A program made the translations under genes and the position numbers. 5,904 bases of DNA from Candidatus Tectimicrobiota bacterium (lineage in GTDB: Bacteria; JACPSX01). The stretch covers positions 1 to 5,904 of the forward strand of contig JACPSX010000169.1 in assembly GCA_016193065.1 (NCBI GenBank), given 5' to 3'. Positions 264 through 5,904 of the stretch are shown here, piece by piece (within the stretch, counting starts at the first letter, position 1; each line of letters begins with the position of its first letter). A model generated the notes under the pieces. The model had not been told where the DNA came from. It searched no databases and worked only from the letters and a program-made list of their open reading frames with translations.

Positions 264-689
264 CTATCCATTTCCTTTGCCACTCCGCCGCCGCCTGGCT
301 TTTCTTTGAACCTCCTGCCTGCGAGGCCACGGTGCCTTACCGTCAAAGATGGGTCCGATCCGCTGCATCACAACTGGTAAGATCTCGCGGATCTGGGGCA
401 CCGTAAGGGCATGTGCATACTTTCCTCTGTAGACACAGAAGAACAGTACCTCTCGGGTCTTACGGACCCAAACGCGATCAGAGTATAGGCGACCCTCACG
501 GACGGTCTCAATAAGCACGGGGCGGTCAAAGATCACTATGAGGCCAGGGCCCCCACCGGGATGGGGTTGCACGTCTTTGACGCGTAAGTCTTCCACTGTA
601 ACGCCTTTGTATCGTTATCCTCTGTGTCCCACGACCTGCGTCACCGGGTGGAGGAGCCAGGTCTTGAAGACGTCAATTGAGTCAGGCAT
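264..689 (-). pseudogene. Unknown small protein gene interrupted by an in-frame TAA
   Basis: An ATG at 689-687 follows the end of the C39-like gene with one base between its TGA stop and this ATG, an arrangement typical of translational coupling. The frame runs 24 codons, meets TAA at 617-615, then continues in the same frame for 116 more codons to a TAG at 266-264. The part after the stop is protein-like, with alternating hydrophobic segments (PGLIVIFDRPVLIETV; EVLFFCVYRGKYAHAL) and a basic Arg/Lys-rich tail. A GTG at 596-594 with AAAGGCG about 6 nt upstream could restart translation and give a 110-residue product, so a shortened functional protein is possible. Alternatively the real gene always began at the GTG and the first 24 codons are chance. 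I do not recognise the family. The upstream coupled gene is clearly decayed, which favours a pseudogene. Confidence 0.45.
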
Positions 690-690
690 C

Positions 691-1461
691 TCACTTTCCA
701 CGGGGGCGCCTCTCCTTCTGCGGGGCGACCCCGTTCAAGACTGGGAGGTAGTCCAGAACACCCACCGTGATGCCCAGGTATCGCGGAAGGCCACCAAGCT
801 CCACGGTAGTGCCGAACAGCAATGTATCCAACTCAGGCAACAGGTACCCCCTGTTCCGATACTCGGCAGGGTCCATCAGCGCATACTCTCCCAATCTGTC
901 GAGCGCGACCAAGTAGGTAATGCAGATTCACTCGCGCCCCAACCGGGACCATGGTCACGAGCATCAATCGCCACCCCTGGTGCATAAGGCCAGCGAGGGT
1001 AATCGCATCATGCCTGCCCCGTGTGATAATGACGCCATTTGCCTCGGCCTCAACCAGAGCGGATTCGTGCTCAGTGAACTACCCCGGAGCAAGCTGCGGG
1101 GCATCAAGTGCCAGAACAGGAAGAGCCCTGCGCGGCGAGCCGCGGGGAATGAACCCCCTTCGATTCAAGTGGCTCACGGCCTCAAAGGCCACCAGTTCTG
1201 CACGGACGGACCTCCGGATCCTCTGCAAGCGTTCGTCATCCTGCCAGATTCCAGATACTATCCCGTAATCTCGTCGTGCAGTGATGGCCAACCTCCCAGG
1301 GACTGACCATATTTCGTCATTCCCCTGACCCGACGCCAGACTCGTTCCTCTGCTTCATCGGTGTTTGGCTCAGCATGAAGTTCGGCCAGAGGAACCGTCA
1401 CCGCCGCTGCTCCACAAGAATCCTGGTATTGCTGCCGACGCGCTAACAGGTCATCATCCAT
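691..1461 (-). pseudogene. C39-like (DUF3335/PF11814-type) cysteine peptidase, frameshifted
   Basis: The start is ATG 1461-1459, with GGAGAG (1475-1470) 8 nt upstream. Codons 1-57 contain QQYQDSCGAAA: Cys16 with Gln10 six residues before it, the nucleophile and oxyanion pair of C39 and other papain-fold peptidases. At about 1291 the frame shifts (one base missing) and continues as LAITARRDYG through WQDDERLQRI. A TAG at 1081-1079 interrupts the same frame, which resumes with FTEHESALVEAEANG and reaches VNLHYL. At about 913 a second shift (one base extra) leads to VALDRLGEYALMDPAEY, then a TGA at 693-691. The LHYL histidine and the MDP aspartate stand where the C39 family has its other two catalytic residues. 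From memory of the family, the order SCG / WRR...GG / LA..ARR.G...W / HY / DP fits the Peptidase_C39-like DUF3335 group better than bacteriocin-export C39 domains. No ABC transporter or membrane segment is attached. Three separate lesions make this a decayed gene; the family call is inference. Confidence 0.65.
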
Positions 1462-1561
1462 CGCCGCCGCTCTCCGGAAACAACAAGGCCCTGGGCGTAC
1501 GGCAGGAAGCCACACCCATGGCCGCAAACCGGAAGGTCAGAGCCTCCCGGAACCTATTCAT
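1454..1561 (-). CDS. Possible 35-residue leader peptide overlapping the C39-like start
   Basis: An ATG at 1561-1559 opens a frame of 35 codons ending in TGA at 1456-1454, overlapping the ATG of the peptidase gene by 8 nt in another frame. Such an overlap can couple or attenuate translation of the next gene. The peptide begins MNRFREAL and contains several Arg; no signal or known motif is visible. The SD is weak (GGCGG about 9 nt upstream). In the second leader copy the matching position is ATA, not ATG, and the frame continues into the downstream ORF, so the peptide is not conserved as an independent unit. It may be a by-product of the structured RNA. Confidence 0.2.
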   Translation of the reverse strand: MNRFREALTFRFAAMGVASCRTPRALLFPESGGDG

Positions 1562-1576
1562 TTACTGCCGCCGTGC
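1470..1576 (-). promoter_or_regulatory. Structured leader RNA, copy 1 (upstream of the C39-like gene)
   Basis: Stem A pairs GCACGGCGGCAG (1576-1565) with a segment at 1508-1497; I count 10 of 12 positions as Watson-Crick or G-U. Between the arms, an 8-bp hairpin CCGGGAGG/CCTTCCGG closes a CTCTGA loop. Stem B pairs GGCCATGGGT (1523-1514) with GCCCAGGGCC (1496-1487), with one A-G mismatch, and is followed by TTGTTGTTT. The 3' arm of stem B begins at the base right after the 3' arm of stem A, so the two stems are interleaved. The SD of the peptidase gene (1475-1470) comes just after the T-rich run. The sequence aligns with 5156-5269 and is the less well paired copy, as expected beside a decayed gene. 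I recognise no known riboswitch class. Confidence 0.55.
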
Positions 1577-1588
1577 TTGAGTTGTCTC

Positions 1589-1618
1589 AGTGAAGCAAGC
1601 CTTTCCGCATCCTGTCAA
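1589..1618 (-). promoter_or_regulatory. Sigma-70-type promoter of leader copy 1
   Basis: A perfect -35 box TTGACA lies at 1618-1613, followed by an 18-nt spacer and a weak -10 TTCACT at 1594-1589 (matching T1, A4 and T6 of TATAAT). The -35 is exactly 36 nt from the first base of the leader stem, the same distance as in copy 2. Transcription would start a few nt before the leader stem. The poor -10 may reflect decay or a need for an activator. Confidence 0.45.
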
Positions 1619-4406: not shown

Positions 4407-4436
4407 AGGCTAACCGAGACCGTTCTTGTGTGTCAA
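4407..4436 (-). promoter_or_regulatory. Probable promoter of the PDZ lipoprotein-M48 operon
   Basis: A perfect -35 TTGACA at 4436-4431, an 18-nt spacer and a -10 TAGCCT at 4412-4407, which keeps the key T1, A2 and T6. Transcription from here gives a 5' leader of about 175 nt before the ATG at 4223. That leader contains small GC hairpins: GGCGAG/CTCGCC with a C-run in the loop (about 4382-4403), and GTCCC-GAG-GGGAC just after. No recognisable riboswitch. The weak -10 keeps confidence moderate. Confidence 0.5.
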
Positions 4437-4444
4437 CAGGGAAG

Positions 4445-4505
4445 CCATCCCCGGCCAGGGCCGCGGGAGGGCCTTTTCCCGTCGCGAACGCTAGGCCGGG
4501 GATGG
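4445..4505. repeat. Perfect 12-bp inverted repeat next to the operon promoter
   Basis: CCATCCCCGGCC at 4445-4456 and its exact reverse complement at 4494-4505, separated by 37 nt. The interior has a weaker inner pairing around GCGGGA and TCCCGTCGC. The repeat lies just upstream of the -35 box at 4436-4431. It could be two operator half-sites, a structured RNA on the plus strand, or the stem of a small dispersed element. No T tract follows either arm, so it is not a terminator. Confidence 0.5.
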
Positions 4506-4586
4506 GTGGTTAACCCGCCAGTTTCACTGAGACTCTACGATCCGAAAATTCCCCTTGACTTTTCCCGCCCAGAGTATGAAGCTTCC

Positions 4587-4709
4587 ATTGTCGCCCCAAC
4601 CAGGAGACACGGGAAACCGTGGTTTCGGGCGAGCCGACACGCGCAAGTCGGTCATTGCCTGGATGGGCCAGGGACCTGCGAAAGCAGCCCCTGGCCGCTT
4701 GTTTTTTAT
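4587..4709 (+). ncRNA. Candidate small structured RNA ended by its own terminator
   Basis: A row of hairpins on the plus strand. The outer stem TCGCCC (4591-4596)/GGGCGA (4627-4632) encloses CACGG-GAAA-CCGTG with a GNRA tetraloop, AAC/GTT pairs below it and a one-sided 7-nt bulge CAGGAGA. Then come CCGAC-N8-GTCGG (about 4634-4651) and a terminator (4666-4709). No protein-like frame fits between them. A TATGAA at 4575-4580 is at the right distance to start RNA near 4587, but the nearest -35-like TTGACT (4555-4560) is only 14 nt away, so the promoter is doubtful. It matches none of SRP RNA, 6S, tmRNA, RNase P or the riboswitch classes I know. The start is inferred; the end is set by the terminator. 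Confidence 0.38.
4666..4709 (+). terminator. Rho-independent terminator with no annotated plus-strand gene
   Basis: The arm GGCCAGGGACCTGC (4666-4679) pairs with GCAGCCCCTGGCC (4684-4696), with a small internal mismatch, across a GAAA tetraloop at 4680-4683. It is followed by GCTTG and six T (4702-4707). The T tract is on the plus strand only; on the minus strand the hairpin is followed by CATCCAGG, so it does not serve the minus-strand ORF that ends at 4706. It points to plus-strand transcription arriving from the left. Confidence 0.72.
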
Positions 4710-5125
4710 GGCCAGATCCGCGGGTGGGTCCGGATCTTCAAAATCGTACTCGTTCCGGCTGAGTATGCCGTGATGAAGTGCGACACCCCCTTGCGGTTAG
4801 GAGTCTGTATCACCACAGCAAAGTCCTCGCCCCAACCGGACCCGGTAAGTAGGTAGACCTCCCGCCCCTTGACGTGGGCTTGTCGAATCTCCTCTGGCCT
4901 CTGAAGTGCCTCTAAGATCCACGGCATCCGCTCAGCCCGCTCAAGATCGAAATACTGTCCGTTTCTCCAGAACACATGGGCCCAGTTGTGGGCGGTAAAG
5001 ATCACGCGCACCTGCGTGCCACCCCGGGAGGCGAACACCTTCGCCCAGACGAAGTGCTTGAAGAAGTACGCCTTGAAATCATTCTCGCTCGTGAACCCAA
5101 GGACCTGCGGCGGCGGCCTGGTCAT
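4706..5125 (-). CDS. Small protein resembling BECR/PBECR nuclease-toxin domains
   Basis: The frame gives 139 residues from ATG 5125-5123, or 142 from an in-frame GTG at 5134-5132. The SD GGGAGG (5143-5138) is 12 nt from the ATG and 3 nt from the GTG, so neither spacing is ideal; I prefer the ATG. No signal peptide or transmembrane segment: a cytosolic or delivered protein. Counting from the ATG, residues 39-54 (VRVIFTAHNWAHVFWR) form a beta strand with two His. Residues 62-81 carry ERAERMPWILEALQRPEEI, the 'R..R..WI..tl..P..I' helix, and 89-93 and 102-107 are strands (VYLLT, FAVVIQ). Then comes GVSHFITAYSAG at 113-124, the 'hhTaY' motif. This order is what I recall from the barnase/EndoU/colicin E5-D/RelE (BECR) fold and the phage-linked PBECR families, which are RNases or toxins. 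No antitoxin-like gene is adjacent. It sits behind leader copy 2, and its TAA overlaps the T tract of the plus-strand terminator. Family is inference; that it is coding is more secure. Confidence 0.6.
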   Translation of the reverse strand: MTRPPPQVLGFTSENDFKAYFFKHFVWAKVFASRGGTQVRVIFTAHNWAHVFWRNGQYFDLERAERMPWILEALQRPEEIRQAHVKGREVYLLTGSGWGEDFAVVIQTPNRKGVSHFITAYSAGTSTILKIRTHPRIWP

Positions 5126-5155
5126 CCTGGGCACCTGCCTCCCTACGTCTTCATA

Positions 5156-5269
5156 CCTCCCAGAAAACAGCGAGGCCCCGGGTGCACGGCGGGCAGCCAG
5201 AACCCAGGGCCTCGCGTACCGGCAGGCCGGAGCCTCCCGCCACCTTATGCCCTTGTGTGCCCGCCGTGC
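5156..5269 (-). promoter_or_regulatory. Structured leader RNA, copy 2, with attenuator-like hairpin (upstream of the nuclease-like ORF)
   Basis: Stem A is a perfect 12-bp pairing of GCACGGCGGGCA (5269-5258) with TGCCCGCCGTGC (5195-5184). Stem B is a 13-bp pairing of CGAGGCCCTGGGT (5214-5202) with ACCCGGGGCCTCG (5183-5171), one G-U included, followed by CTGTTTTCT: a Rho-independent terminator shape. The 3' arm of stem A fills the loop of stem B and ends on the base before stem B's 3' arm. The stems are therefore either alternatives (aptamer versus terminator) or an H-type pseudoknot with coaxial helices. CGGGAGGCTC between them is shared with copy 1. GGAGG at 5160-5156 follows, with a stray ATG AAG ACG TAG mini-frame, then the ORF's own SD. 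No known riboswitch consensus is recognised. Confidence 0.6.
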
Positions 5270-5281
5270 TTTCGTTGAGCC

Positions 5282-5311
5282 CTTCTACCTACAGCCTCTC
5301 GATTTTGTCAA
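5282..5311 (-). promoter_or_regulatory. Sigma-70-type promoter of leader copy 2
   Basis: A perfect -35 TTGACA at 5311-5306, an 18-nt spacer and -10 TAGAAG at 5287-5282 (4 of 6 to TATAAT). The first base of the leader stem (5269) is 36 nt from the -35 box, as in copy 1, so transcription would begin at the very start of the structured leader. Confidence 0.6.
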
Positions 5312-5603: not shown

Positions 5604-5679
5604 TGGTGGGCCCACCAGGATTCGAACCTGGGACCGTCCGGTTATGAGCCGGTGGCTCTGACCACTGAGCTATGGGCCC
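5604..5679 (-). tRNA. tRNA with CAT anticodon, probably tRNA-Ile2 (lysidine type)
   Basis: A 76-nt cloverleaf. The acceptor stem GGGCCCA pairs with TGGGCCC, followed by A73 and an encoded CCA (5606-5604). The D arm is GCTC/GAGC, the anticodon loop CTCATAA has CAT at 5646-5644, and the T arm is CCAGG-TTCGAAT-CCTGG. As I place it, the first pair of the anticodon stem is A-A (27-43), a small irregularity. CAT can belong to elongator Met, initiator Met or Ile2. An initiator is unlikely because the 1-72 pair is a normal G-C and the anticodon stem lacks three G-C pairs ending in GGG/CCC. C4-G69 and C5-G68, with GGCTCATAACC, resemble the Ile2 tRNAs of E. coli and B. subtilis, whose C34 is changed to lysidine by TilS to read AUA. 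Elongator Met is the alternative. Confidence 0.95.
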
Positions 5680-5723
5680 ACGCCAGGCGAATGCACTTGC
5701 AAGGCCATCTCTTCACCGACTAA

Positions 5724-5748
5724 CCGAAATGCCTCCAAGGCTTCTCGG
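5724..5748 (-). other. Stem-loop between rpoD and the tRNA
   Basis: On the minus strand CCGAGAAGCC (5748-5739) pairs with GGCATTTCGG (5733-5724), with one mismatch, across a 5-nt loop. No T tract follows, so it is at best a weak terminator or a processing/stabilising hairpin at the rpoD mRNA 3' end. rpoD and the tRNA may be cotranscribed, with the tRNA cut out later. Confidence 0.35.
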
Positions 5749-5763
5749 CTCTCTCGTCTTCCG

Positions 5764-5904
5764 CTAGCCCTCCACGAAGCTCTTCAGCTTCTTGCTCCGG
5801 GTCGGGTGGCGCAGCTTCCGCAGGGCCTTGGCCTCGATCTGGCGGATTCGCTCGCGGGTGACGTCGAACTGCTGTCCGACCTCCTCCAGGGTGTGGTCGC
5901 AGCC
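5764..5904 (-). CDS. rpoD: RNA polymerase primary sigma factor, C-terminal end (partial)
   Basis: The last 46 codons and a TAG stop; the gene continues beyond the right edge. The visible part is sigma region 4.2: [20 protein letters not shown], then [20 protein letters not shown] and the end VEG. The helix-turn-helix with [10 protein letters not shown] reads the -35 box TTGACA. The LRHPxRSKKLxSF ending is diagnostic of primary (RpoD/SigA) sigma factors, as against stress or heat-shock sigmas. Codon use is GC-rich and clean, as expected for a housekeeping gene. The TTGACA boxes found in this window fit this sigma factor. Confidence 0.94.

Follow-up and report, generated by a model that had tools for sequence, protein, structure and literature searches.

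The window, that is, the whole stretch of 5,904 nucleotides analysed here, contains two homologous elements (C1 and C2) which we interpret, with a probability of roughly 0.55, as copies of a mobile transcription attenuator: a leader RNA, about 110-115 nt long, made from a promoter of its own. The computed homology of the copies, the position of their promoter, the conservation of two hairpins (P2 and P3), a pair of complementary segments and the association with mobile cassettes point to this reading. The leader RNA probably sets whether transcription reaches the gene behind it; these genes are accessory genes, possibly with an anti-phage role.

Copies of the element and their distribution

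Local alignment of C1 with C2 gave a score of 73, against a mean of 16.5 and a maximum of 28 in 1000 dinucleotide shuffles. The original prediction that 5156-5311 and 1470-1618 (minus strand) align along their full length is borne out by this score, which lies far above the shuffles and indicates homology over about 150 bases. The insertions and deletions between the two copies were also, as claimed, not multiples of three. The coordinates of all the features are collected in Table 1.

Table 1. Positions of the elements, their parts and the adjoining features in the window.
Feature	Position	Strand	Evidence or remark
C1, -35 box TTGACA	5306..5311	-	42 nt (start to start) before GCACGG
C1, -10-like box TAGAAG	5282..5287	-	18-nt spacer; identical hexamer and spacing in C7 (G099)
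C1, type A element, predicted leader or short RNA	5162..5278	-	homologous to C2, C3, C6 and C7; model R1 (built from C1 and C2) gives 141.4 bits
C1, GCACGGCGGGCA, 5' 'antisense' segment, 5' strand of P1	5258..5269	-	perfect 12-nt complement of 5184-5195
C1, P2 hairpin with CTCCGG loop	5219..5240	-	95% of cells paired, five copies
C1, predicted P3 intrinsic-terminator hairpin	5170..5215	-	arms 5202-5215 and 5170-5183; 95% of cells paired
C1, TGCCCGCCGTGC, target strand in P3 loop, 3' strand of P1	5184..5195	-	complement of GCACGGCGGGCA
C1, U-tract TGTTTTC, end of conserved block	5163..5169	-	identity to G099 climbs to 97-100% just past it
Gene A, PDC-M04B-like/PBECR2-like nuclease candidate behind C1	4706..5134	-	PADLOC PDC-M04B, E=1.4e-14; Pfam PBECR2, E=0.008, under cut-off
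Cassette block common to G000 and G099 (Methylomirabilota)	4490..5177	-	blastn and sliding identity
Truncated type B site closing the shared cassette	4434..4501	-	17-nt CGCGACGGGAAAAGGCC, exact match shared with C4 and C5 only
C2, -35 box TTGACA	1613..1618	-	42 nt before GCACGG
C2, -10-like box TTCACT (weak)	1589..1594	-	18-nt spacer
C2, second type A element	1475..1585	-	131.7 bits with R1
C2, P2 hairpin	1529..1550	-	pairing across copies
C2, predicted P3 terminator hairpin	1487..1523	-	minimum-energy fold of C2
C39-like gene start behind C2	1258..1459	-	DUF3335/Peptidase_C39-like, E=0.085, under cut-off

BLAST of C1 against its own genome (G000) and 97 others missed even C2, as exact 11-mers common to the copies are few, and covariance models were therefore needed. 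Two were used, R1 built from C1 and C2, and R2 built from four sequences, and the source was the sole representative of its phylum in the genome set compared. In G000, which is 86% complete, R1 found no third full copy, and a motif search agreed. A pattern scan of the genomes of 84,980 species returned 112 stretches, nearly all of them chance matches; the sole true relative among these (C3, 95.7 bits) lies on L129, a Candidatus Methylomirabilota contig of genome G098, which also carries a second full copy (C6) and short relatives. Across 95 Methylomirabilota genomes, R2 added one copy, C7 in G099 (94.7 bits), and no other convincing one, and a pattern search with the 3' half of the element returned sites of G098 only. 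We did not accept the weak model matches (E 0.002-0.04) in G104, G135, G139, G154 and other genomes as real; G104, when inspected, had no sequence in common with the element. Full copies number two in G000, two in G098 and one in G099. The genome-wide regulon that had been suggested does not agree with two full copies in the own genome and real copies in two of 95 Methylomirabilota genomes.

The five full elements (C1, C2, C3, C6 and C7) are designated type A. Four further sites, designated type B, differ from them in the 5' half: C4 (L129 4435-4518), C5 (L129 ~7095-7178), B2 (L195) and the truncated site of the window. CGCGACGGGAAAAGGCC is exact in three of the four, and the 3' half of C4, C5 and B2 resembles that of type A. 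The conserved block ends in TGTTT in eight of the nine sites and in TGTT in the truncated one. In this sample of nine sites from three genomes, the 5' and 3' halves may be separate in history.

The type A element is absent from Rfam and matches no catalogued RNA family; searches of Rfam 15 gave no match for C1 and C2 (even with E up to 5), C3 or C6. The int-alpA motif (RF02996) reached 30.0 bits in the truncated type B site (4447-4501), below its gathering score of 35.8, and did not match C4, B2 or type A. The identification of type B with int-alpA was consequently not upheld beyond the window copy, itself sub-threshold.

Promoter, hairpins and complementary segments

The promoter-plus-leader module of the original prediction is supported, since the promoter position, the hairpin and the terminator are conserved in the relatives. 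A -35 box was found in four of the five full copies, as TTGACA at 42 nt before GCACGG in C1, C2 and C7 and as TTGATA at 41 nt in C3. The claimed 36 nt are those between the two motifs in both window copies, and the claimed 18-nt spacer is likewise the same in C1 and C2. The position of the -35 box is fixed despite the divergence of the spacers between copies; the -10 boxes are weak and differ from copy to copy. Consensus scores of the promoters were 10 (C1), 9 (C2), 8 (C3) and 10 (C7), and a score of at least 8 was reached by 25 of 734 60-mers along these sequences. In C6, neither the promoter nor most of P1 is preserved.

CGGGAGGCTC, which had been placed between two stems, is instead the 5' arm and loop of the P2 hairpin in both window copies. 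The GGGCC-type arm followed by a T-rich run and a Shine-Dalgarno sequence (SD) was recovered as the 3' side of a strong hairpin, P3, followed by TGTTTTC or TGTTTCC and a purine-rich SD. Across the five copies, 95.1% of the cells of P3 and P2 hold standard pairs, compared with 40-60% when partners are slid, and the three P3 arm pairs altered between C1 and C7 are all still canonical. Most changes are one-sided exchanges between G-U, A-U and G-C, with no two-sided change in P2 or P3 and one in P1 (C6), and column shuffles matched the P3 and P2 covariation score in 297 of 500 cases; because the changes are one-sided, covariation is not proof of these stems. The original prediction had staked itself jointly on further copies and on covariation: the copies were found (C3, C6, C7 and the four type B sites), while the covariation is thin.

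When trimmed to the element, C1, C2, C3 and C7 all have P3 as their minimum-energy fold, with z from -1.6 to -3.5, and a longer C1 sequence folds with P1 in place of P3. These folds suggest that P1 and P3 could compete as alternative structures. The complement between the GCACGGCGGGCA-type segment and the terminator-loop strand, which makes up P1, is perfect over 12 nt in C1 and C3 and extends over 11 nt in C7. An 11-nt complement was reached by 3 of 2000 shuffles of C1 and by 3 of 2000 of C3, and one of 9 nt by 8 of 2000 for C7; the cis complements of 6 nt in C2 and 4 nt in C6 do not exceed chance. Furthermore, GCACGGCGGGCA is complementary to the loop strand of C3, of C7 and of the type B site C4, which stands in the same array as C3 and carries the same 12-nt target. 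The P1 pairing, a candidate antiterminator, is complete in both C1 and C3 and almost complete in C7, but C2 has a weak version of it and C6 a broken one; a single two-sided change was seen. In a different pairing, the 5' arm of P2 would bind the 3' arm of the terminator; C1, C2 and C3 allow this, but C6 and C7 do not, and the pairing was therefore dropped.

The weak P1 of C2 and the broken one of C6 could also be expected of an ordinary constitutive promoter and terminator, forming a stand-alone sRNA gene or a passive leader, that were copied with their neighbours and in which the P1 complement has no regulatory part; P3 alone would account for the end of the conserved block. However, an unregulated terminator between promoter and gene would silence that gene, and the complement is exact over its 12 nt in C1 and C3, and over 11 nt in C7, despite the diverged sequence in between. 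We consider this explanation quite improbable. In agreement with an attenuator, a predicted terminator lies between the promoter and the gene, which starts 12-60 nt downstream in C1, C2 and C3.

Downstream genes, shared cassette and mobility

All sites share the orientation of the gene that follows them. The nuclease-like and C39-like genes that had been described behind C1 and C2 were found again as weak Pfam similarities (PBECR2 and DUF3335, respectively), both under the curated cut-offs. Gene A is also present behind C7, the two proteins being 98% identical, and its single-sequence structure prediction had a pLDDT of 39. The C39-like gene (window 264-1459, minus strand) is split over several reading frames, which indicates that it is decayed or affected by assembly errors. 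C3 precedes a frameshifted DUF3800 gene (E=2.1e-6), C4 a DnaJ-like gene and, after it, a TPR gene, and C5 a DUF5677 gene; C6 lies between what we take, reading by eye, to be a Phd/VapC-type pair upstream and the start of a HigA-like gene downstream. With regard to the PADLOC system PDC-M04, gene A resembles the M04B component (Table 1), a better assignment for it than PBECR2, and the DUF3800 gene behind C3 weakly resembles M04A (E=0.039), but M04A-like and M04B-like genes never occur together in one array here. Our literature search found no paper on PDC-M04, which is listed as a candidate defence pair only.

A small gene with a DDLVYGDILDLDPG motif is common to the arrays of G099 and G098 (L195 7944-8414, minus strand, and L129 6044-6364, plus strand; 46% identity over 98 residues). 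ARAGORN reported a tRNA-Arg at window 4718-4797 (plus strand), opposite to and inside gene A, which had no Rfam support and is probably false.

The modules sit on mobile DNA. The neighbours of C7 are a phage-type integrase, two HTH_17 excisionase-like genes and a replication-initiator-like gene. Between G000 and G099, gene A and its surroundings are 93.7% identical over 859 bp, and a block of about 690 bp within them is about 98% identical, with 97-100% over most of its length. At one end this identity drops within C1 and at the other within the type B site, and the elements C1 and C7 are 82.5% identical. Because gene A is 98% identical while the elements are not, and the identity breaks at the sites, the element and gene A differ in history; this would resemble the exchange of phage immunity modules, or would follow if the site serves as an exchange border. 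These cassette borders were mapped from one cassette pair only.

The same borders, together with the placement of the sites between cassettes in gene orientation in three genomes, would suit a DNA recombination site that joins cassettes as in integrons, where the hairpins are folded single-stranded DNA and a cassette spans the stretch between the end of a site and the start of the next one. The TGTTT end common to all but one of the sites agrees with it, as does an integron integrase in G098 above the TIGR02249 family cut-off (G098:C130:14426-15404, 370.7 bits); G000 and G099 gave partial matches only. Like attC sites, the elements are structured and stand between accessory cassettes in a single orientation, attC sites being 60-120 nt long, but they lack the R''/R' boxes and have their own promoter and a U-tract terminator, neither of which a recombination site needs. 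A scan for canonical attC pairs (RYYYAAC...GTTRRRY, 50-150 nt apart, at least 6/7 complementary) found none in the window, L129, L195 or L196, whereas it did find a textbook attC at L233 644-703 in G098, beside an integrase fragment. Moreover, the G098 integrase is on contigs other than those of the elements. A recombination site is thus an unlikely explanation. A second, frameshifted integrase was observed at G098:C7:9740-10370.

Two copies lying 3.7 kb apart before unrelated genes, with similar copies in other genomes, might also be taken for a MITE-like miniature repeat that inserts itself and carries a promoter. Such a repeat should occur in many copies regardless of genes, and this genome has two full ones; the cassettes move with the gene and not with the element (98% identity of gene A, 82.5% of the elements), and the copies are always oriented with the following gene. 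We hold this very improbable. The dispersed repeat raised in the original prediction does not fit either, as all copies adjoin accessory genes in the orientation of the gene and one is on a recognisable integrative element. Searches with gene A, the neighbouring L195 proteins and the motifs of the element gave no matches in viral contigs, plasmids or phages.

The region just upstream of C1, window 5604-5904 (minus strand), holds a tRNA-Met together with the terminal part of a sigma-70 factor gene. The array was apparently inserted at this tRNA site, since the tRNA terminator of G100 precedes a different gene; a second tRNA end was looked for in the window and not found. The best match of the rpoD-tRNA flank is in Methylomirabilota, with 84% identity to G100, which indicates that the host is near Methylomirabilota or that the contig was binned with such an organism.

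Proposed mechanism and similarity to known regulatory RNAs

If the element is an attenuator, RNA polymerase would start a few bases before GCACGG and most transcripts would stop at P3, releasing a short RNA, while some would read through and express the accessory gene. GCACGGCGGGCA could pair with TGCCCGCCGTGC in the terminator loop, either in cis or in trans on a related copy, and this pairing would shift the balance between terminator and read-through, so that the 5' segment may be a cis antiterminator or a trans recogniser. In Methylomirabilota-like bacteria, integrative elements or cassette islands would carry the modules together with their accessory genes. A bolder possibility, which we put forward as distinctly doubtful, is that the cassettes are RNA-controlled as a group: the 5' segment would be a specificity tag for the terminator loops of sister copies, RNA pairing would coordinate the arrays or repress incoming relatives, and the sites would double as exchange borders for defence genes.

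To our knowledge, the regulatory RNAs of phages and satellites, such as P4 CI, P1 C4 and IsrK, are known from a few Gammaproteobacteria. The P4 CI and P1 C4 immunity RNAs are antisense RNAs processed by RNase P which pair in trans with their targets. The type A element may be functionally akin to these mobile-element RNAs, to judge from its layout, and no test made placed it in the IsrK, P4 or P1 C4 families; C1, C2, C3 and C6 gave no match to the Rfam families C4 or c4-2. In P4, the CI RNA pairs with seqA, upstream, and seqC, downstream, and causes termination (PMC4825925). The element would share with it the leader of a mobile operon, the short segment complementary to similar targets and the proposed premature termination, but the antisense of P4 is the processed CI RNA located between the targets, whereas in our case the upstream element carries the complementary segment at its 5' end. 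Part of the transcripts of IsrK, from the prophage Gifsy-1, pass its terminator into the downstream mRNA (PMC4825925). IsrK is also an RNA of a mobile element with its own promoter, an intrinsic terminator, partial read-through and alternative structures, which for our element are predicted; this likeness is drawn from descriptions and not from a direct sequence comparison, the two differ in host, downstream genes and structure, and the dual action is that of IsrK.

If the proposed mechanism is true, accessory genes that are candidates for anti-phage functions can travel with their own RNA switch in Methylomirabilota-like bacteria. The promoter, the 12-nt complement and the terminator, taken jointly, give a search pattern for further arrays of this kind, and cassette borders at the elements make a dual role of the RNAs as exchange points testable.

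Other structured RNA candidates were observed on the strand opposite to the genes behind the elements. One, a strong candidate at 4581-4707 of the window (plus strand), is convergent with gene A and ends in a predicted terminator (z -2.74), its hairpin being GGCCAGGGACCTGCG...CCTGGCC, then GCTTGTTTTTT. The sequence of this candidate does not differ between G000 and G099 (100% identity), while gene A shows several changes; the TTGACT and TATGAA upstream of the candidate are only 14 nt apart. The DUF3800-IX motif of Rfam (RF02968), which does not match the type A element, is present in the G098 array at L129 4302-4364 (minus strand) with 55.9 bits, directly downstream of and convergent with the DUF3800 gene behind C3. 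The DUF3800 and int-alpA motifs were reportedly defined by Weinberg in 2017. The leaders showed no better predicted pairing in trans than shuffles did, either with the opposite-strand RNA (4581-4704) or with DUF3800-IX. Upstream of DUF3800-IX in L129 there is TTGACG-18-TAACGT, and its layout matches that of the opposite-strand RNA behind gene A.
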